A DNA stretch of 22,604 nucleotides, from IMG/VR virus record IMGVR_UViG_3300032893_000284, positions 1 to 22,604 of that record; one strand, 5' to 3'. The notes beneath the pieces are model-generated. The model did not search any database and was not told the origin of the DNA. It saw only the letters and a program-made list of their open reading frames with translations. The stretch's first letter is position 1, and each line of letters opens with the position of its first letter. The translations under genes were made by a program, and so were the position numbers. Positions 5,687-22,604 of the stretch are shown here, in pieces. The stretch is from a virus.

Positions 5687-5883
5687 GCTGGCAATGGCGG
5701 CCGGATCACGGCCACCGGAATTTTGCTGTTGATGAGGCGGGCGGTTTCCTCGTTGGCCCCCTTGCGCTCCACCCGGTACGTCAGCCCGTCGCCGCTCACC
5801 TCGATCTTGCGGCCGAACCCGAACACGCCCGTCCGCCGGACCTTCAAACCCGGCCGGAGCGCCTTGACAAATTTTCTGCTCAT
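5683..5883 (-). CDS. Small basic protein between Mu-F domain and protease
   Basis: This 66-aa protein starts MSRKFVKALRPGLKVRRTG and contains a compact beta-like stretch (GDGLTYRVERKGANEETA). Its stop overlaps the protease start by ATGA, which supports coding. The frame stays open upstream to a TTG at 6051, but the extension is encoded partly by the heptamer array at 5911-5942 and looks like leader sequence, so ATG 5883 is preferred. I do not recognise the family. Confidence 0.65.
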   Translation of the reverse strand: MSRKFVKALRPGLKVRRTGVFGFGRKIEVSGDGLTYRVERKGANEETARLINSKIPVAVIRPPLPA

Positions 5884-5910
5884 AAAATCTCTAATTCTGC
5901 CTTGCCGCTG

Positions 5911-5942
5911 CCCTCGACTCTCGACTCTCGTCACTCGACCCT
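5911..5942 (+). repeat. TCGACCC-type degenerate heptamer array (copy 1, intergenic)
   Basis: The plus strand reads CCCTCGACTCTCGACTCTCG followed by TCACTCGACCCT, a run of CTCTCGA/CCCTCGA units with a 7-nt period. It lies between the portal/Mu-F gene and the 66-aa gene, 28 nt upstream of that gene's ATG. Confidence 0.7.
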
Positions 5943-6066
5943 GATTCTGGCTGTTGCAACGCCGCGTTATGGCCTTGCAATGACGATTCCAAGCCGCCTG
6001 CAGCATCACGCCATCCGCATTCCCGGCCCGTCCTGGAGCCGCCGGCGTCAATTCGTCCCGTTGACC

Positions 6067-14283: not shown

Positions 14284-14894
14284 GCAAACGCCCCCTTCAA
14301 TCCGCCGCCGCCCGGTGGATGCTTGAAGGCATCCGCGAGCACGAAGCCTTCAACGCCGCCTTCCGCTCCGCCCGAGCCCACGCCATCAACGCCGGCTTCT
14401 TCTTCCTCTCCGCCCGCCAGCAGATCGCCGACGGCAACTGGGGCGAATTCCTGTTTGGCTACAACCACAAAATCTCCGAGCGCGCCGTGCGCTTTTACAT
14501 GTTGCTGGCCACCGAGGCCATCGAGTGGGTCAAGCACGCCCAGCCCCAGCTCGCCGGCCTGGATAAAATCCAGGCCGCCGCCCGCGACCTCGTCATGGAA
14601 AGCCCCAAGCCGCTGGTTGCCTTGGCCCGCGAGCTCGGCTTCATGCGCCGGTTCGGCGAATACGACGCCGTCAAATATGCCACCCGCAAACGCCTGGGCG
14701 ACGCCGGCCAGATCGAATTTGAGTTCACCGCCGCCGAGCACACGCTCGACCTGCTCTGCGATCCCAAAGTTGTGCTCAAGTTCCCCGAAAGCGCTGACCA
14801 GCACGAAGCCCTTACCGAGCTCAAGGGCAAGCTCCAGAGCGCCACCGCCCGCGTCGAGCACCTGCTCCAAAACGCCACCCCCATCGAAACCTGA
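14280..14894 (+). CDS. DUF3102-like helical protein
   Basis: This 204-aa protein has the central pattern I associate with DUF3102: a helix with NAGFFFLSARQQIADGNWGE, then FLFGYNHKISERAVRFYMLL, in which a serine-containing HTH-like turn is followed by a 'YM' helix. A second helical part (LVALARELGFMRRFGEYDAV) and a C-terminal coiled coil (LTELKGKLQSATARVEHLL) follow. DUF3102 proteins occur on phages and mobile elements and probably bind DNA, but their role is unknown. Start overlaps the previous stop by ATGA. Confidence 0.65.
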   Translation: MSKRPLQSAAARWMLEGIREHEAFNAAFRSARAHAINAGFFFLSARQQIADGNWGEFLFGYNHKISERAVRFYMLLATEAIEWVKHAQPQLAGLDKIQAAARDLVMESPKPLVALARELGFMRRFGEYDAVKYATRKRLGDAGQIEFEFTAAEHTLDLLCDPKVVLKFPESADQHEALTELKGKLQSATARVEHLLQNATPIET

Positions 14895-14896
14895 TT

Positions 14897-15178
14897 ATGC
14901 CATCGACCCTCGACCCTCGACCCTCGACCAGTTCTCGCGGCCGCCTGCGCGAGAATTCCCAATGCGCCATCATCCTGCGCGCCCTCCAGGCCGCCGAGGG
15001 CGACTGGATCTCCATGCCCACGCTCGTCGCCATCAGCCACAGCTACAACATCCACTCGCGCATTGACGAACTCCGCCAGGTCCACGGCTACAACATCGAG
15101 AACGACACGGACCTCTCCGTCCGGCCCCACGTCTCGCGCTACCGTCTCCTCACCAATCCAGAACCCGCAATCCCATGA
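14897..15178 (+). CDS. Winged-helix DNA-binding protein
   Basis: This 93-aa protein has a compact winged helix from about residue 20: NSQCAIILRALQAAEGDWIS, MPTLVAISHSYNIHSRIDEL and a wing that ends in SRYRLL. The 'n..sRI.eLR...Gy.I' pattern is common in small phage HTH proteins. The first 15 residues (MPSTLDPRPSTSSRG) are encoded by a TCGACCC heptamer array (14903-14930) and look unrelated to the fold. Its stop overlaps the start of the DnaA-like gene (ATGA). Confidence 0.75.
   Translation: MPSTLDPRPSTSSRGRLRENSQCAIILRALQAAEGDWISMPTLVAISHSYNIHSRIDELRQVHGYNIENDTDLSVRPHVSRYRLLTNPEPAIP
14903..14930 (+). repeat. TCGACCC heptamer array (copy 3, four units)
   Basis: Three perfect TCGACCC units at 14903-14909, 14910-14916 and 14917-14923 are followed by TCGACCA at 14924-14930. 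The array lies in frame at the 5' end of the winged-helix gene and encodes most of its disordered N-terminus. Confidence 0.9.
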
Positions 15179-15594: not shown

Positions 15595-16211
15595 AAACGC
15601 TGGCGCTCTTCCTCATCGCGTTGGCCGGCTGCCTGGCTGCGCTGCTGGGTTTGCGCCGGCTGGACGCCTGGCTGGAGCGCAAGTTCCTCAAGCTCTCCTG
15701 CGCCTGGTCAATTTTGGTCGCGCTTGTCTTGGTGTTAAATTCTCCTGCGGGGTATTGGATGGCCGCAGCGGACGCGGTTCCGGGCCGGTCCCCCGCCGGG
15801 CCTTTCGTTGGCCGGCCCGGTCTTCTGTCGGTGTGTTTGCCGAGCGCCGTGTCGTCCGCATCGGCTGTCCGTCTCGCCGCCCTCTCGATGATCGAGTCCG
15901 GCGACTCCGACGCCGCTGTCGGCCGCGCCCGCGAAGTCTCCCGGTTCCAGATCACGCCCGCCGTCTGGCGCCAGTATGCCGGCGGCCTCGACCCCGCAAA
16001 TCCCTTCACCGCCTGGAACACCGCCGCCGCCATCATGCACGACCGTTGCAAGGCTTTTGAACGCCGCTTCCAGCGCCCCTGCACCGACGCGGAATTTTAC
16101 ATTCTCTGGGCGCGCCCGGCCCTGCTCATCGGTCCCGGTCGTCCCATTCATGCCGCCCTGCGCGATCGCGCCGCACGCTTTGTCAACCTCGTCAAACTAC
16201 ATCAACCATGA
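15591..16211 (+). CDS. Membrane-anchored lysozyme/transglycosylase-like protein
   Basis: This 206-aa protein has two hydrophobic segments (about 3-20 and 37-52), then a linker, then a compact lysozyme-like domain: ALSMIESGDSDAAVGRARE (Glu102 is the likely catalytic acid), SRFQITPAVWRQYAGGL, and a C-terminal ERRFQRPCTDAEFYILWARP. The 'E-S-G, G..SR.QI.P.vW, t..dfY.lW' layout is that of SLT/lysozyme-like domains. It may be the phage endolysin or a virion-entry muralytic enzyme held in the membrane. Position inside the early operon, coupled by ATGA to the transposase, is unusual for either. Confidence 0.7.
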   Translation: MKTLALFLIALAGCLAALLGLRRLDAWLERKFLKLSCAWSILVALVLVLNSPAGYWMAAADAVPGRSPAGPFVGRPGLLSVCLPSAVSSASAVRLAALSMIESGDSDAAVGRAREVSRFQITPAVWRQYAGGLDPANPFTAWNTAAAIMHDRCKAFERRFQRPCTDAEFYILWARPALLIGPGRPIHAALRDRAARFVNLVKLHQP

Positions 16212-18340
16212 AAACTCTCGCCCCAGAGTCTCATTCAACCGTCCCCCCCGGAGCCGTGGCGGATCAATACTTCGCCGCCGCCGACATCGCCCTCGCTTTG
16301 GCCGTCCACAAAAAGCGCGTCCTGCGCGTCGCCCGCCGCGACGCCTGGCCGCAGCGCACCGACGGCTACCGCCTCCTGCTCCAGCCCCCGCCCGACATCG
16401 CGGCGTTGATCATTGCCCGGCCCATCAGTCCCAGTAGTCCCATTCGCCCCATCCATTTCGCCGATCTCGTCCACTCCGATCCCCAGCGCGAGCTGGTGCT
16501 CCGCCGTGAGCAGGCCGTCCGCCTGCTCCAGGAAAACCTGCACCTGGGCAAGGAAGTCGCGCTTGTCTCGACCGCCGCCATCATCCGCGCCACTTATCCC
16601 GGGTTCCGTTGCCAGGCCCGCGCGCTCCGCGAATGGCTCAAACGCTATCAGGCCCACGGCCTCGACGGCCTCGTCGATCAAAAGCGCGGTCGGGTCGGCC
16701 GCAAACCGTTCGCCGCCGATCTCGATCAGACGGACATCCTCCGCGCCCGCGCCGCCGCCATCGAATTCGGTGCCGCCCGCAAAGGCGATGGCAAGCCCGC
16801 GCTCAACATCGCCCGCTCGTACCGTGACACTTTGGTGGCCAACCCCACCATCACTGGCCCCGCCCGGCGCTGGCTCCACGGCGCCAACGCCAGCAAATCC
16901 TACGTGCCGCCCAGCGTGCGCCAGGCGCTGGCTTCCGCGCCCCTCACCGCCACCCTCATCCAGCGCGGGCCCAAAGCCGCCAAGCTCGACGGCGCCTGGA
17001 CCGAGTGCGATTACTCAGAAGTCCCCGCCGGCCGCGCCTTCACCGCCGACGACATGACCGCCAACGTTTATGTCTGGACCGAGTGGCCGAACGAGCAGGG
17101 CTTCATTTTAATCCGCCCGCAGATCCTCGCCGCCATGGACATCGGCTCCATGTCCTGGCTTTGCCTCCGCGCCGTCATCCGGCCCAAAGGCCAGTACAAT
17201 CACGACGATGTCTGGGGCTTGATTGGTGACGTGTTCGACGACTTCGGCCTTTACCCTATCGCCGTGTTGGAGGGTGGCACCTGGCAGAGCAAGGAAATCA
17301 CCGGCCAGCTCTGCGACGACGAGGTCCGCTTCGGCGGCCTGCGCGCCCTGGGCTGCAAAGTCATCCACACCCGCACGCCCCGCGGCAAGATCATCGAGAC
17401 GGCGTTCAACACCCTGCAGCACGCCGCCGACAACTGCGTCGGCTTCTGTGGCCGCAATGAGCGCGTCGATTGTCCCGAGACCGTCAAACAGCAGCTTGCC
17501 GCCGTGCGCAGCGGCAAGGCCCACCCGCGCGAATTCTTCCAGCACATCTCGGCCTATAAGACCCATTTGTCCCACGTCATGAATTCCCTGAATCATGAGC
17601 GCTCGGACGGCAAGATCCTCCGCGGCCTGGCGCCGGCGGACAAATGGGCCCAGGACAATCCGCAGAACCCGCGCTTCCCGGATTCCAGCAAGTGGATGTA
17701 CCGCGCCAGCTATCGCGTGAACGAAGTCACCCGGAACGGCGTCCGCATCTCCACCGGCTCCGGCAAATACCAGCTCCACTACACCTACAGCGCGCCCGAG
17801 CTGGTGGCGCATCGCGGCCGCCGCGTCGCCATTTTTTGGAACGATTACGATCCGGACACCGACGCCGTCATCTACACCATTCGCGCCGGCAAGCCGGACC
17901 AGCTCATTTGCGTGGCTCCGCGTGTTCAATCTCTTCCACGGTTCGGGGCAACCGGGGACCAGGTCCACGCGGAGTCCACGCGTAAAGCCGCGCTGGCGAA
18001 CGTCGCCCGCGTCGAGCGCGCCTCGCTGGCGCCGTTTCTCCAGCGCAGCGCCCAATCATCGGTCAGGCCCTCGACCCTCGACTCTCGGCTCTCGGCTGAT
18101 TTGAGCGCCGCCCGCCAGGAACAGGGCCGCCGCATCCGCACCCGCAAAACACTCCGCGATTTTCAGGGCACCGCCGAGGCCCTGCTCGATGAGGCAGGTT
18201 CATCGCTTGCCCGAAACACAACCCAGGAGGTGACGCATGAAGTAAACGAAACCGACCAACATACTTCGACCAGCCGGGTCGTCTCAGAAGATCGCGGCCC
18301 GGCTGTTCCCGACCTCGACGCCTCCGCCTTGCTCGATTAG
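16208..18340 (+). CDS. MuA-like DDE transposase
   Basis: This 710-aa protein has an N-terminal Mu-type DNA-binding region (residues 18-60: YFAAADIALALAVHKKRVLR), a second HTH (ALVSTAAIIRATYPGF to RALREWLKRYQAHGLDG), and a retroviral-integrase-fold core. The first acidic residue is Asp268 in WTECDYSEVP. The third is Glu397 in RGKIIETAFNTLQ. At the second position, where Asp-Asn-Gly is usual, it has LEGGTW (Glu355). A beta-barrel-like region (YRVNEVTRNGVRISTGSGKY) and a helical C-terminal part follow. It would cut and join the phage ends and act with the MuB-like ATPase encoded next. A heptamer array encodes residues about 620-630 (RPSTLDSRLSA). The 710-aa length is in the MuA range. Confidence 0.9.
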   Translation: MKTLAPESHSTVPPGAVADQYFAAADIALALAVHKKRVLRVARRDAWPQRTDGYRLLLQPPPDIAALIIARPISPSSPIRPIHFADLVHSDPQRELVLRREQAVRLLQENLHLGKEVALVSTAAIIRATYPGFRCQARALREWLKRYQAHGLDGLVDQKRGRVGRKPFAADLDQTDILRARAAAIEFGAARKGDGKPALNIARSYRDTLVANPTITGPARRWLHGANASKSYVPPSVRQALASAPLTATLIQRGPKAAKLDGAWTECDYSEVPAGRAFTADDMTANVYVWTEWPNEQGFILIRPQILAAMDIGSMSWLCLRAVIRPKGQYNHDDVWGLIGDVFDDFGLYPIAVLEGGTWQSKEITGQLCDDEVRFGGLRALGCKVIHTRTPRGKIIETAFNTLQHAADNCVGFCGRNERVDCPETVKQQLAAVRSGKAHPREFFQHISAYKTHLSHVMNSLNHERSDGKILRGLAPADKWAQDNPQNPRFPDSSKWMYRASYRVNEVTRNGVRISTGSGKYQLHYTYSAPELVAHRGRRVAIFWNDYDPDTDAVIYTIRAGKPDQLICVAPRVQSLPRFGATGDQVHAESTRKAALANVARVERASLAPFLQRSAQSSVRPSTLDSRLSADLSAARQEQGRRIRTRKTLRDFQGTAEALLDEAGSSLARNTTQEVTHEVNETDQHTSTSRVVSEDRGPAVPDLDASALLD
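18067..18097 (+). repeat. TCGACCC-type heptamer array (copy 4, inside the transposase gene)
   Basis: The plus strand reads GCCCTCGACCCTCGACTCTC then GGCTCTCGGCT, with units CCCTCGA, CTCTCGG and CTCTCGG. It is in frame and encodes PSTLDSRLSA in the C-terminal linker of the transposase, between the barrel and the final helical region. Confidence 0.85.
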
Positions 18341-18374: not shown

Positions 18375-19544
18375 ATGGACACCGCCACCAAACCCCCCCC
18401 TGAAGTCACCGAGATCCCGCAGGAGATCCTCGGCAACAACGTCCGCGCCTCCTGGCAGTTCTCGCTCGACAACGTCCGGTCCGCCATCGCGCCCTATTCG
18501 CCCCGCGCCAAGGAGCTCCTCATCCGCGCCTTCCTCTGGTGCATCGATGACGCCCACCCCGTCACCAAGCCCGACTTCGCCGAGCGCGTCGGCTCCAGCG
18601 ACAACACCATTTACAAGATTTACACCGGCAAATACACGCACCCCGAGACCAAGGCCACCCTCCAGCCCTCGGACAAGCTCATCGACGCCATCGAGAAATT
18701 CCTGGCCCTGGAGAAAAAGCGGTTCGCCGGCGGCAAGACTGACCTCGTCCGCACGCCCACGCTCGTCTCCATCGAAACCGCCTGCAATCTCGCCCGCGAA
18801 TCCCAGACCATCTGCTTCCTCGTCGGCCCGTCGCACATCGGCAAGACCTGGGCGCTGGAGCGCGCCTACACGCCGGAGAACAATCACGGCAACACCATTT
18901 ACACGCGCATGGAAGCCGCGTCCGGCCTCGGCGGCATGGTCCGCGCCATGGCCCGCTCCGTCGGCATCTCGGACAAGGCGAACACCGCCGACCTCATCTC
19001 CCGCATCAAGAACGCCGTCACCAAAGACATGCTCTGGATCCTCGACGAGGTTCACCTGCTCGCCCACACCTACCGCCGCGGCTCGTTCTACTCCTGCATG
19101 GAAGTCATCCGCGAAATCCACGACGTCAAGAAGCTCGGCATGGTCCTGTCGTTCACCATCCTGGATGAAGTCAAGGCCGCCAGCCAAAAGGAGCTGCAGC
19201 AGCTTTGGCGCCGCGGCGTGCACAAACTCGTTTTGCCGAACATGCCCACCGTCGGCGACCTCACCGCCATTCTGGAATACAACGGACTCAGTTTCCCGGC
19301 TCCGGATTACAAGGTGCAGGTGCGTTTCAAGGACGCCGCCGGCCGGTTGCAAACCATCGAGGAAAAGCCCCGCGAGCTGCTCCGCCAGATCGCCAAGTCC
19401 GAGGCCCTGCTGGCCGTCACCGAGCGCATCCGGTACGCCCGCAAGATGGCCGGCAAGACCGGCAGCCGCCTCAACTGGTCCCATTTCGTCGAAGCCCATC
19501 TCCGCATCGCCAAACAAGCCCAGCCACAGGACGACTGGAACTAG
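18375..19544 (+). CDS. MuB-like AAA+ transposition ATPase
   Basis: This 389-aa protein has an N-terminal helical/HTH region (residues 40-90, with KPDFAERVGSSDNTIYKIY), a Walker A motif GPSHIGKT (151-158), a Walker B MLWILDEVH (219-227, Asp224/Glu225), and an AAA+ lid region. MuB binds target DNA, activates MuA and mediates target immunity. Gene order transposase then ATPase is the Mu order. It is larger than Mu MuB (about 310 aa) because of the extra N-terminal segment. The start is set by the TCAACC leader and a 9-nt spacer. Confidence 0.9.
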   Translation: MDTATKPPPEVTEIPQEILGNNVRASWQFSLDNVRSAIAPYSPRAKELLIRAFLWCIDDAHPVTKPDFAERVGSSDNTIYKIYTGKYTHPETKATLQPSDKLIDAIEKFLALEKKRFAGGKTDLVRTPTLVSIETACNLARESQTICFLVGPSHIGKTWALERAYTPENNHGNTIYTRMEAASGLGGMVRAMARSVGISDKANTADLISRIKNAVTKDMLWILDEVHLLAHTYRRGSFYSCMEVIREIHDVKKLGMVLSFTILDEVKAASQKELQQLWRRGVHKLVLPNMPTVGDLTAILEYNGLSFPAPDYKVQVRFKDAAGRLQTIEEKPRELLRQIAKSEALLAVTERIRYARKMAGKTGSRLNWSHFVEAHLRIAKQAQPQDDWN

Positions 19545-19550
19545 GTGTCT

Positions 19551-19907
19551 ATGCGCGACCTTTTAAAACGCAAAAAGTACTTAAAGCGATGGAGGCAACT
19601 CCATCTAGAAAAAGTGCGAGCTCAATCACGAGCGGGCGCCAAGCGTTGGCGCGAAACTCATCCTGAGGAAGCTAAAGTGCATGTGGAACGATGGAGGCGA
19701 CTTCATCCAGAAAAAGTGCGAGCTCAATCACGAGCGGGCGTCAAGCGTTGGCGCAAAACTCATCCTGAGGAAGCACGAGCATATAAGAGGCAGTACTATG
19801 CCACCCATCGAGAGGAGTACCTACGTAGGAATAGAAATAAATCCAGTCAAAAAAAACAGTTACAACTCCATGAAATCTACCGAAACATTATCCAAGGTTC
19901 CGTCTGA
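19551..19907 (+). CDS. Basic 34-aa tandem-repeat protein
   Basis: This 118-aa, strongly basic helical protein starts at ATG 19551 (a GTG at 19545 is in frame). It carries two near-identical 34-residue units (RWRRLHPEKVRAQSRAGVKR and onward, ending in THPEE) plus a partial third (YKRQYYATHREEYLRRNR). 'RWR..HPEK' repeats of this sort occur in phage and HNH-linked proteins and probably bind nucleic acid. The last 38 bp overlap the next gene in another frame. Base composition is clearly less GC-rich than the MuB-like gene before it, which suggests recent acquisition. Confidence 0.7.
   Translation: MRDLLKRKKYLKRWRQLHLEKVRAQSRAGAKRWRETHPEEAKVHVERWRRLHPEKVRAQSRAGVKRWRKTHPEEARAYKRQYYATHREEYLRRNRNKSSQKKQLQLHEIYRNIIQGSV
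19587..19774 (+). repeat. 102-bp tandem DNA repeat
   Basis: Unit 1 begins at 19587 and unit 2 at 19689, a 102-bp period. Over the first 86 bp (19587-19672 against 19689-19774) 81 positions match. All five differences are transitions and four change an amino acid. The repeat lies in the 34-aa repeat protein gene. Confidence 0.9.
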
Positions 19908-20438: not shown

Positions 20439-20666
20439 ATGGAACTCACTCCCCGAGCTCAAGAAATTCTTGCCACGGCGCATTCCGTCGCCAAGGAGCT
20501 GAACGACCAATTCATCGGCGTTGACCACATCGTCATTGCCATCCTGAGCGACGGTCGTGGCATCGCCAACAACATCCTGCAAAAGCACGGCGTCACCCAA
20601 GCCGAAATTATCGGCGAACTCCATTTATCCCGTTCGATCTCTCAACCATCAACCATCAACCAATAA
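20439..20666 (+). CDS. Stand-alone Clp N-terminal domain protein
   Basis: This 75-aa protein is almost entirely a Clp N domain of the ClpA/ClpC/ClpB type: MELTPRAQEILATAHSVAKE, LNDQFIGVDHIVIAILSD (the 'yi.teHlLlaLl' position) and IANNILQKHGVTQAEI. Clp N domains bind adaptors and substrates; here there is no AAA+ module. It could be a decoy or adaptor for host Clp, whose proteases control repressor turnover and transpososome disassembly in Mu (that known case uses ClpX). The last residues (SISQPSTINQ) are encoded by the TCAACCA leader of the next gene. Confidence 0.85.
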   Translation: MELTPRAQEILATAHSVAKELNDQFIGVDHIVIAILSDGRGIANNILQKHGVTQAEIIGELHLSRSISQPSTINQ

Positions 20667-20671: not shown

Positions 20672-20902
20672 ATGGCCAACACCAAAGAAGAACTCCAAGA
20701 GCGCGCCCAGCTCATTCGCATTCACGAGGCCAACTGCCACATCGACTATCCCACGCCCGAGGAGGCGAACTTCCGCATCGCCATCATGCGCAAGATCGGA
20801 TTCACCTTCAACCTCAAGGAGATGCGCGCCGCACCCGTCACCGGCCCGGTGCAGAGCACGCCCAGCCGCCCCGCCGGCGCCACCGCCCGAAAAATTAATT
20901 AA
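20672..20902 (+). CDS. Small hypothetical protein
   Basis: This 76-aa protein (MANTKEELQERAQLIRIHEA) has a helical N-terminal half with HIDYPTPEEANFRIAIMRKI and a disordered, Pro/Ala-rich C-terminus. Start is set by the TCAACCA leader at 9-nt spacing. No family recognised. Confidence 0.65.
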   Translation: MANTKEELQERAQLIRIHEANCHIDYPTPEEANFRIAIMRKIGFTFNLKEMRAAPVTGPVQSTPSRPAGATARKIN

Positions 20903-21384: not shown

Positions 21385-21738
21385 ATGAAGAACCCCTGGG
21401 GAGAAAGATACGATCAGAGCGCGCTCATGCGCGGCTGCATCACGTGCGACGCCGAGAGCCGCATCCAGCAGATCAGGGAGAGCGCCGACGTTGCCTGGCT
21501 GCTGCGCGTGGCGAAGCATCGCGGCAATCAAAAGTCGGTGCAGCAGGCGGTCGAGGCCCGGATTTTAAAGCTGGATCGCGCCTATCGGCCCGGCTGCGCG
21601 TATCACGGATGCTCGGGGAAATTCTCCCCGGTTTTCCCCAAGCCCCTCGGCCAGATGTGCTATGAATGCCCGCTCGCCTGCGCGCGGAAGGCTAACGGCG
21701 AAGCTGTGCGGCAACTGAACGAGAGGACAAGTCAATGA
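21385..21738 (+). CDS. Cysteine-rich putative zinc-binding protein
   Basis: This 117-aa protein starts at ATG 21385 (MKNPWGERYDQS). Paired cysteines at 18/21 (CITC), 71/76 (CAYHGC) and 92/95/99 (CYECPLAC) indicate one or two zinc sites. Its central part is helical and basic. The stop overlaps the next ATG (ATGA). The DNA of its last 16 codons begins at a GGCTAAC that could be the inverse core of an attC-like site. Confidence 0.65.
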   Translation: MKNPWGERYDQSALMRGCITCDAESRIQQIRESADVAWLLRVAKHRGNQKSVQQAVEARILKLDRAYRPGCAYHGCSGKFSPVFPKPLGQMCYECPLACARKANGEAVRQLNERTSQ

Positions 21739-21863
21739 GAATATGCCCGACATGTGGTGGAATAAAAGGTGGAGACCCGCTCCAAGGTGAAATTTCCTGT
21801 ACCTGCTTGTCCTCTCGTGAAGGGTCGCCGCAGGCGATGTCGCGCACCAGCGAAGTGTTAGCC
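21690..21863 (+). other. Possible long attC-like palindrome
   Basis: GGCTAAC (21690-21696) and GTTAGCC (21857-21863) are exact complements. Inside, ACGAGAGGACAAG (21719-21731) and CTTGTCCTCTCGT (21806-21818) form a 13-bp perfect inverted repeat, with weaker pairing between. At 174 bp it is longer than usual attC sites and it contains a start codon, so the call is tentative. Confidence 0.4.
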
Positions 21864-22154
21864 GCGCCGAGCGGCGAACACGAGCTGGCAGCTTCGCCGT
21901 TAGCCGCGCCGAAAAGCGATTCAGGCCAGGTTTACCGCAAGCAAATTCGACGGCTCCAAGAGCAAAATAAACTACTCGCCGAATGTCTTGCTGACGAAAG
22001 GGGGCGGCGCAAGCGAGCATACAAGTGGTATCAAAACCGATTACATTCCCGTTTGTGGACAATTTTTGACATTACGATGATGGGCTTGCGCCGCTGGCCT
22101 GACGCTGGTCCCGCGAGGGCCAGCGAGCGAGGCGCGGCTAACGAAAAAAGCTGA
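21735..22154 (+). CDS. Zinc-ribbon plus coiled-coil protein, possibly cassette-encoded
   Basis: This 139-aa protein has CPTC and CTC pairs at residues 4/7 and 22/24 (half-ribbon pattern), an Ala/Ser/Pro-rich linker (VLAAPSGEHELAASPLAAPK), a coiled coil (YRKQIRRLQEQNKLLAECL) and a short aromatic/hydrophobic stretch (LWTIFDITMMGL). The linker is encoded by a duplicated GTTAGCCGCGCCGA sequence. The stop (22152-22154) lies just inside an attC-like site, as is typical of integron cassette genes. The part upstream of about 21,858 could belong to the phage and the rest to a cassette, in which case the reading frame is a fusion. Confidence 0.55.
   Translation: MRICPTCGGIKGGDPLQGEISCTCLSSREGSPQAMSRTSEVLAAPSGEHELAASPLAAPKSDSGQVYRKQIRRLQEQNKLLAECLADERGRRKRAYKWYQNRLHSRLWTIFDITMMGLRRWPDAGPARASERGAANEKS
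21857..21912 (+). repeat. GTTAGCCGCGCCGA direct repeat
   Basis: A 14-bp sequence is repeated exactly at 21857-21870 and 21899-21912, 42 bp apart. Its first 12 bases are the inverse complement of GGCGCGGCTAAC at 22131-22142. GTTAGCC fits an integron core site except for one base. Confidence 0.8.
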
Positions 22155-22234
22155 GCCGCCGCCGACTCGCGACGTGAACCGCGACAGCGGAACTGCCAGC
22201 GCCATCGGCGGTTGGCTCCGGCGACGTGTTGGGC
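22136..22234 (+). other. attC (59-base element)-like recombination site
   Basis: The 99-bp element starts with GGCTAAC (22136-22142, one mismatch to RYYYAAC) and ends with GTTGGGC (22228-22234, perfect GTTRRRY). The inner arms GAGCC (22153-22157) and GGCTC (22214-22218), then CCGCCGA (22159-22165) and TCGGCGG (22205-22211), pair with an asymmetric bulge (G against TT), like L''/L' with extrahelical bases. About 10-nt spacers separate the arms from the core sites. The stop of the preceding gene falls inside it, and a new gene follows 25 bp later in the same direction. Confidence 0.62.
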
Positions 22235-22259
22235 AGAGCAACTAGCGACATACACAACT

Positions 22260-22604
22260 ATGAGCAAAACTATGAGCAAAAACATAACGAACGATGCAGA
22301 GCGGTGGATTGATGGTGAAATCAGCCTCGGCAAACTGCTCCAAATAATCGGCTGCTCGCGGCCATCCGGTGACGACCTCGCCGGAGCAATCGCCAACGCA
22401 TACAGCGACCGAATCCAACGCGCCTACACCAAAATCGAAGCCGAAGCGAAACGCTCAAAATCCGAATACGACGCGGAGGAAAAAGCGAACGACTCAATCA
22501 ACGCTGCGGCATCCGCTGCCGCTCACCGCGCATATATCCACGCCTTGAGCATCTTAAATTTTGAGACGCACGCCGCGCTGCCCAACGCCGACATCAGGCA
22601 CGGC
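22260..22604 (+). CDS. Putative cassette gene, partial (C-terminus off the right edge)
   Basis: This frame starts at ATG 22260 (MSKTMSKNITNDAERWIDGE), with a second possible start five codons... at residue 5, and is open for 115 codons to the window end. The product is a helical, Ala- and charge-rich protein (RIQRAYTKIEAEAKRSKSEY; NAAASAAAHRAYIHAL) with no recognised family, as is common for integron cassettes. Codon use is less GC-biased than the phage genes. It begins 25 bp after the attC-like site. Near its visible end the DNA contains GCCCAAC, the exact complement of the GTTGGGC that precedes it, so the gene probably ends within a second attC. Confidence 0.65.
   Translation, partial: MSKTMSKNITNDAERWIDGEISLGKLLQIIGCSRPSGDDLAGAIANAYSDRIQRAYTKIEAEAKRSKSEYDAEEKANDSINAAASAAAHRAYIHALSILNFETHAALPNADIRHG
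22580..22604 (+). other. Start of a second attC-like site (truncated)
   Basis: GCCCAAC (22580-22586) matches the inverse core RYYYAAC perfectly and is the exact reverse complement of GTTGGGC at 22228-22234. Extending outwards, GCGCTGCCCAAC pairs with GTTGGGCAGAGC at 11 of 12 positions. The rest of the site lies beyond the window. Confidence 0.5.

Follow-up and report, generated by a model that had tools for sequence, protein, structure and literature searches.

The probable distal part of a cassette array, with genes opposed to their attC sites, in the early operon of a Mu-like phage

Bacteria shuffle gene cassettes mainly by means of integrons. In mobile and sedentary integrons (classes 1-3 and Vibrio), attC sites have an R''-L''-L'-R' layout with a GTTRRRY core and unpaired bases on the L'' arm, and the integrase carries the IntI insert; the phage system described here is alike in these respects, with one core of the window's site a base off the motif. 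Conventional arrays read outward from Pc near intI, and orientation of a gene with its attC is usual in cassettes, though not strictly defining. By contrast with these conventional integrons, the genes described here read inward.

Integrons have already been described in phages. Qi et al. (2023; PMC9892861) report integrons or CALINs in 21 phages among 10,705 genomes; of six phage attC sites that they tested, five recombined with IntI1 and attI1. Like the phages considered here, theirs carry attC cassettes and sometimes intI, and include temperate and virulent types; the TJE1 and PH101 arrays hold one-direction cassettes, most typical of bacteria. Their text has no mention of Verrucomicrobiota and uses "Mu-like" only in a reference title, and the sections consulted yielded neither a consistent reversal of genes against attC nor a phage IntI clade. 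Likewise, searches of the open-access literature yielded no account of phage arrays with a consistent reversal, of an IntI clade proper to phages or of such arrays in Mu-like phages. What is new here is that the layout is reversed, that phage IntIs form a clade of their own and that the carriers include Mu-like phages.

The window, a stretch of 22,604 nucleotides from IMG/VR virus record IMGVR_UViG_3300032893_000284, encodes both proteins by which we recognize a Mu-like phage, namely a MuA-like transposase (16208-18340, plus strand; phrog_310, E = 5e-25) and a MuB-like ATPase (18375-19544, plus; phrog_296, E = 6e-19; AAA_22), and shares with other transposable phages the placement of these transposition genes in the early operon. 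They are followed by an early gene that is kept in relatives (20672-20902, plus; 62% by tblastn to L003) and by a phage gene at 21385-21738 (plus) with homologues in L008 and L009 (tblastn E = 4e-8 and 8e-7). These homologues lie directly after MuA (L008, 12158-12406; L009, 12151-12414); in the window the gene stands downstream, fused to the distal attC. Relatives of the MuA protein occur in virus records and MAGs, the latter labelled Verrucomicrobia, Pirellulales and Patescibacteria; the Patescibacteria-labelled MAG contig with a close MuA relative (L006, JAGWKM010000013.1) is probably mis-binned. The Verrucomicrobia MAG (G001) contains several integron integrases above the curated cut-off. 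The early operon also encodes a 75-aa Clp N-terminal domain protein that stands alone, with no ATPase (20439-20666; PF02861, E = 4e-12), and that may serve as a decoy or adaptor of the host's Clp. A 120-aa protein with near-perfect internal repeats is encoded at 19545-19907 (LHPEKVRAQSRAG.KRWR.THPEEA). A short repeat, TLDPRPSTLDSRLS or its reverse, recurs near 5740-5950, 14880-14960 and 18060-18110, within ORFs and between genes.

The right end of the window had been predicted to contain integron cassettes, and all of the short motifs on which that prediction rested are present, GTTAGCC at 21857 and 21899, GGCTAAC at 22136, GTTGGGC at 22228 and GCCCAAC at 22580, with a further copy of GGCTAAC at 21690. 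The fragment contains one full attC, one weak attC and one cut attC, all on the minus strand. The complete site, attC1 (22136-22235), scored 102.4 bits in a covariance model (R1) trained on 30 family sites that include the window's own. Read on the minus strand, it has paired R and L boxes in the order R'' (GCCCAAC), L'' (GGAGCCAACCGCC), L' (GGCGGCGGCTC) and R' (GTTAGCC), with a spacer and extra L''-arm bases. The R'' core fits RYYYAAC, and the R' core is one base off GTTRRRY, an uncommon form that also occurs elsewhere in the family (L118). The probable distal end of the array, attC0 (21690-21864), has a long central loop and is weak alone (17.4 bits; E = 5.5e-4 within 1.3 kb); a similar long-loop attC of 41 bits lies at the same boundary in the related Mu-like phage L007. 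The third site, attC2 (22580-22604; GCCCAACGCCGACATCAGGCACGGC), is cut by the contig end; it is complementary to GTTGGGC at 22228 and resembles a stretch inside a family attC (L149:5240-5262).

These sites bound two cassette bodies in the plus direction. The ends of the first (21857-22142) are complementary over 12 of 12 nt (GTTAGCCGCGCC / GGCGCGGCTAAC), beyond the 7-mers and with attC0 as the bounding partner, and those of the second (22228-22586) over 9 of 9 nt, so that the predicted complementarity of cassette ends holds for both. Twelve nucleotides is the typical matched-end length in many segments of the bacterial arrays of this family. GTTAGCCGCGCCGA is duplicated internally: besides the copy at the boundary (21857) there is a second one 42 bp further on (21899-21912, plus). 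The first cassette ORF (21735-22154, plus; 139 aa) begins in phage DNA, with an ATGA overlap with the preceding gene, and as predicted its stop falls inside attC1, where the protein ends in ANEKS; cassette genes of other phages likewise end inside attC, in PNEKS. The second ORF starts at an ATG 26 bp past attC1, close behind the site as had been noted, and is open at the contig end, where it enters attC2 (22260-22604, plus; ...PNADIRHG). Family searches gave no match for the first protein and no convincing match for the second. Because the contig ends within the array, no intI of the phage's own is seen: the 22.6-kb record contains no TIGR02249 match, and neither an attI nor a phage gene to the right of the array is seen in it.

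Structure alone did not establish attC1. The DNA fold z-scores of the 99-bp palindrome against shuffled DNA are near zero on both strands (-0.6 minus, -0.1 plus), which is what a chance palindrome in GC-rich coding DNA would give. A simple stem-and-box detector returned a 40-point match within the MuA coding sequence of a relative, and structure-only detection was dropped because similar objects were found by chance too often. An Rfam search, which is not informative for attC, gave no match, BLASTn against phage and plasmid collections gave only chance matches, and a 24-mer attC pattern had zero matches over viral contigs; looser patterns succeeded. Since folding was no better than in shuffled DNA, the case for attC rested on homology. 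Within one Verrucomicrobiota order, 96 of 320 genomes gave BLASTn matches to the window site, at about 90-95% identity (best match 95%, E = 2e-39), and a scan of intI surroundings found sites about 90% identical to the palindrome at the bacterial locus L083. At this and three further loci (L189, L199 and L201), arrays of the family adjoin an intI that points away from them. Alignment of the 30 family sites gave a consensus in which R'' pairs with R' and L'' with L', and in which two A's of the L'' arm are unpaired; at 10 of 18 consensus pairs both sides have changed with pairing kept. Identity of up to 95% to sites in independent genomes and covariation within the family refute a chance palindrome, the probability of which is negligible. 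The homologous sites, the intI-adjacent arrays and the pair-keeping changes imply that the window's family is, as judged from sequence, a genuine integron site that is used in bacterial arrays. The same homologous arrays indicate that the conventional top strand of the site is the minus strand here, although the original prediction had taken it to be the plus strand. Thus, the attC, the cassettes and the link between a transposable phage and an integron system were borne out, and the orientation was not: the genes do lie on the plus strand, but the sites face minus, and this is not a normal same-direction array.

We compared gene orientation in phages and bacteria, with strands called by a home-made codon-usage model trained on long ORFs. 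Between neighbouring attC sites in phages, 62 genes run opposite to attC and 2 in the same direction, and all 17 records are reversed. Bacterial loci have 73 genes in the direction of attC and 10 opposite, the latter largely at array edges; the counting rules differ slightly, as 73:10 was counted on flanking genes and 62:2 on genes between sites (Fisher p = 4e-28 for genes and 4e-11 for records). The phage reversal is also seen under the flanking-gene rule (6 same, 92 opposite), and a second bacterial sample counted between neighbouring sites gave 10 same and 3 opposite. Strand assignment by longest ORF gave a misleading 53:47 for phages because antisense ORFs are long in GC-rich DNA; the codon model resolved the strands. 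One array in a bacterial bin (L198; G630 C185) has genes opposite to attC, as in phages, and is possibly a prophage or phage contig within the bin. The window, with attC on minus and ORFs on plus, follows the phage pattern rather than the usual orientation of genes with attC.

These comparisons bear on whether the array is host DNA beside which the phage had integrated. The contig does end in the array, IMG/VR fragments can contain host DNA, and IntI is present in 106 of 376 sampled Verrucomicrobiota genomes (28%). However, host genes run with attC, at 73:10, whereas the window shows the phage layout, and the 3' end of its last phage gene runs into the distal attC. Moreover, relatives have further early genes after the homologue of 20672-20902 that are missing before the array in the window, and therefore the phage had not ended there. 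In L007, three attC sites follow the early genes, all on minus and at 41-44 bits, none of them in the training set; this array occupies the same slot as that of the window. Other phage records likewise have arrays in their interior. A host array adjoining the prophage is therefore improbable. Not every relative has such an array: no cassette array was found in L002, L003, L008 or L009, unlike the window, and G391, G392, G394 and G395 had zero covariance-model matches to attC in their whole records. Ordinary early genes follow the conserved early gene in three of these last four that were examined closely, and in L028. L028 encodes an integron integrase at a comparable place in the early operon (317 bits against a cut-off of 265), and neither an attI-like nor an attC site was found in it. 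The array-less orthologues lack the window's sequence, contrary to what ordinary conserved coding DNA would show, and a covariance-model match and further attC sites, whose absence the original prediction had listed against itself, were both obtained, the further sites in the window and in related phages.

Two attC patterns located arrays in about 20 other virus records, which are metagenomic contigs and, since they were found through these patterns, not a random sample. By the covariance model, G720 has 19 sites, G731 has 16, G725 and G727 have 8 apiece, G726 has 7 and G714 has 6; many of the arrays are interior to their contigs, among them those of G731, G725, G727 and G714. Genes of tailed phages were found in several of the records, a terminase gene in G714 and in G725 and a portal gene in G719 and in G715. 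Among the cassette products are DNA methyltransferases, a PAPS-reductase-like protein, a radical SAM protein and a sigma-like regulator, in keeping with phage-host conflict. G720 and G731 share a 98%-identical block that starts and ends at attC between unrelated flanks, and one cassette body is common to G716 and G727 (92%); such attC-bounded blocks imply that cassettes move between phages. Many phage cassette ORFs (for example in L146, L148, L152, G720 and G721) have an N-terminal leader, VGSG-x-LLG, that runs through an attC half, which suggests attC-encoded leader peptides or translational coupling.

The original prediction offered a choice between secondary-site insertion and a phage beside a chromosomal array, and so omitted the better-supported case of an array that resides in the phage, as in these roughly 20 records, some with intI. 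Alternatively, a host IntI may have inserted a few host cassettes once into a secondary site of the phage and left a plain CALIN, defined by two or more attC sites with no intI, rather than a resident integron. This agrees with the lack of intI in the window record and in most array-bearing phage records. Host cassettes would carry genes in the direction of attC, however, and the arrays are long, common to several phages and in some cases accompanied by intI and attI; we regard this insertion as a possible but doubtful explanation, more credible than an adjoining host array.

Three array-bearing phages encode IntI-like proteins next to the array and divergent from it (G728, 263.6 bits; G733, 225 bits; G727, 224 bits). 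All three score under the TIGR02249 cut-off of 265. The IntI insert is present in each, as are the conserved R, H-x-x-R, H and Y residues. The three proteins form one clade apart from bacterial IntIs (support 100/100), to which the IntI of L083 does not belong. An attI-like site accompanies each (AACAGTTAAT/AACAGTAAAA, compared with AACAGATAAT in L083), and the interval between array and intI contains CTAACAGTTAAT or CTAACAGTAAAA (in L083, CTAACAGATAAT). The Verrucomicrobiota chromosomal integron at L083 thus resembles the phage system in its attC family, its 12-nt matched ends, its similar attI-like core and an intI divergent from the array; unlike those of the phages, its genes run with attC and away from intI. 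IntI-like integrases with a C-terminal extension in other virus records (L030, L031 and L032) form a tight separate group, outside the phage integrons considered here, and were left out of the argument.

A further explanation is that the hairpins are dispersed repeats derived from attC that now serve phages merely as intergenic hairpins or stop-codon donors. Phage genes do often end in a site with the same residues (PNEKS and the stop), and leader ORFs read through the site. In 48 of 67 segments, however, the cassette ends match over 9-14 nt; this, the exchange of attC-ended blocks and the adjacent IntI point instead to live recombination, and we consider dispersed repeats very unlikely, somewhat more so than an adjoining host array.

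We conclude, with a probability of roughly 80%, that a Mu-like phage has a cassette array within its early operon, and that the window shows the distal part of this array at its right end. The phage probably infects a member of Verrucomicrobiota; links through attC and IntI suggest the host order. Because the genes run against attC, they are read with the phage operon and, where intI is present, toward intI and in its direction. We predict that the window phage's own intI lies beyond 22604, with an attI of the form AACAGNTAAT. IntI, whether encoded there by the phage or supplied by the host, would fold and recombine one attC strand, here the coding (plus) strand, and cassettes would be swapped between phages and host through IntI exchange. 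The phage early promoter would drive cassette expression, and selection may favour the reversed layout in two ways. The T-run after the stem (GGCTCAGCTTTTTTCG) may act as a terminator in the attC direction only, and the reversal is therefore proposed to allow read-through. Moreover, the recombinogenic strand would be the coding strand, exposed as lagging template when genes run with replication; attC excision is higher with the recombinogenic strand on the lagging template (PMC5371416, PMC11023631).

More broadly, and with confidence only somewhat above an even chance, we propose that Verrucomicrobiota phages carry a virus-borne class of integron, with its own IntI clade and attI and with genes antiparallel to attC that are read toward the integrase from phage promoters. 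These phages would form a cassette pool, and possibly a source, separate from bacterial arrays, of which the window phage would be one carrier, with intI just beyond 22604. The origin of cassettes and the way in which genes gain an attC are two questions on which phage arrays bear. That one phage lineage combines large arrays, an integrase of its own and consistently reversed genes implies that the usual orientation of genes with attC is not inherent to cassettes. Phage arrays give cassettes a way to pass between viruses and hosts, and they offer a natural test of what sets the orientation of cassettes, expression or the exposure of a strand.
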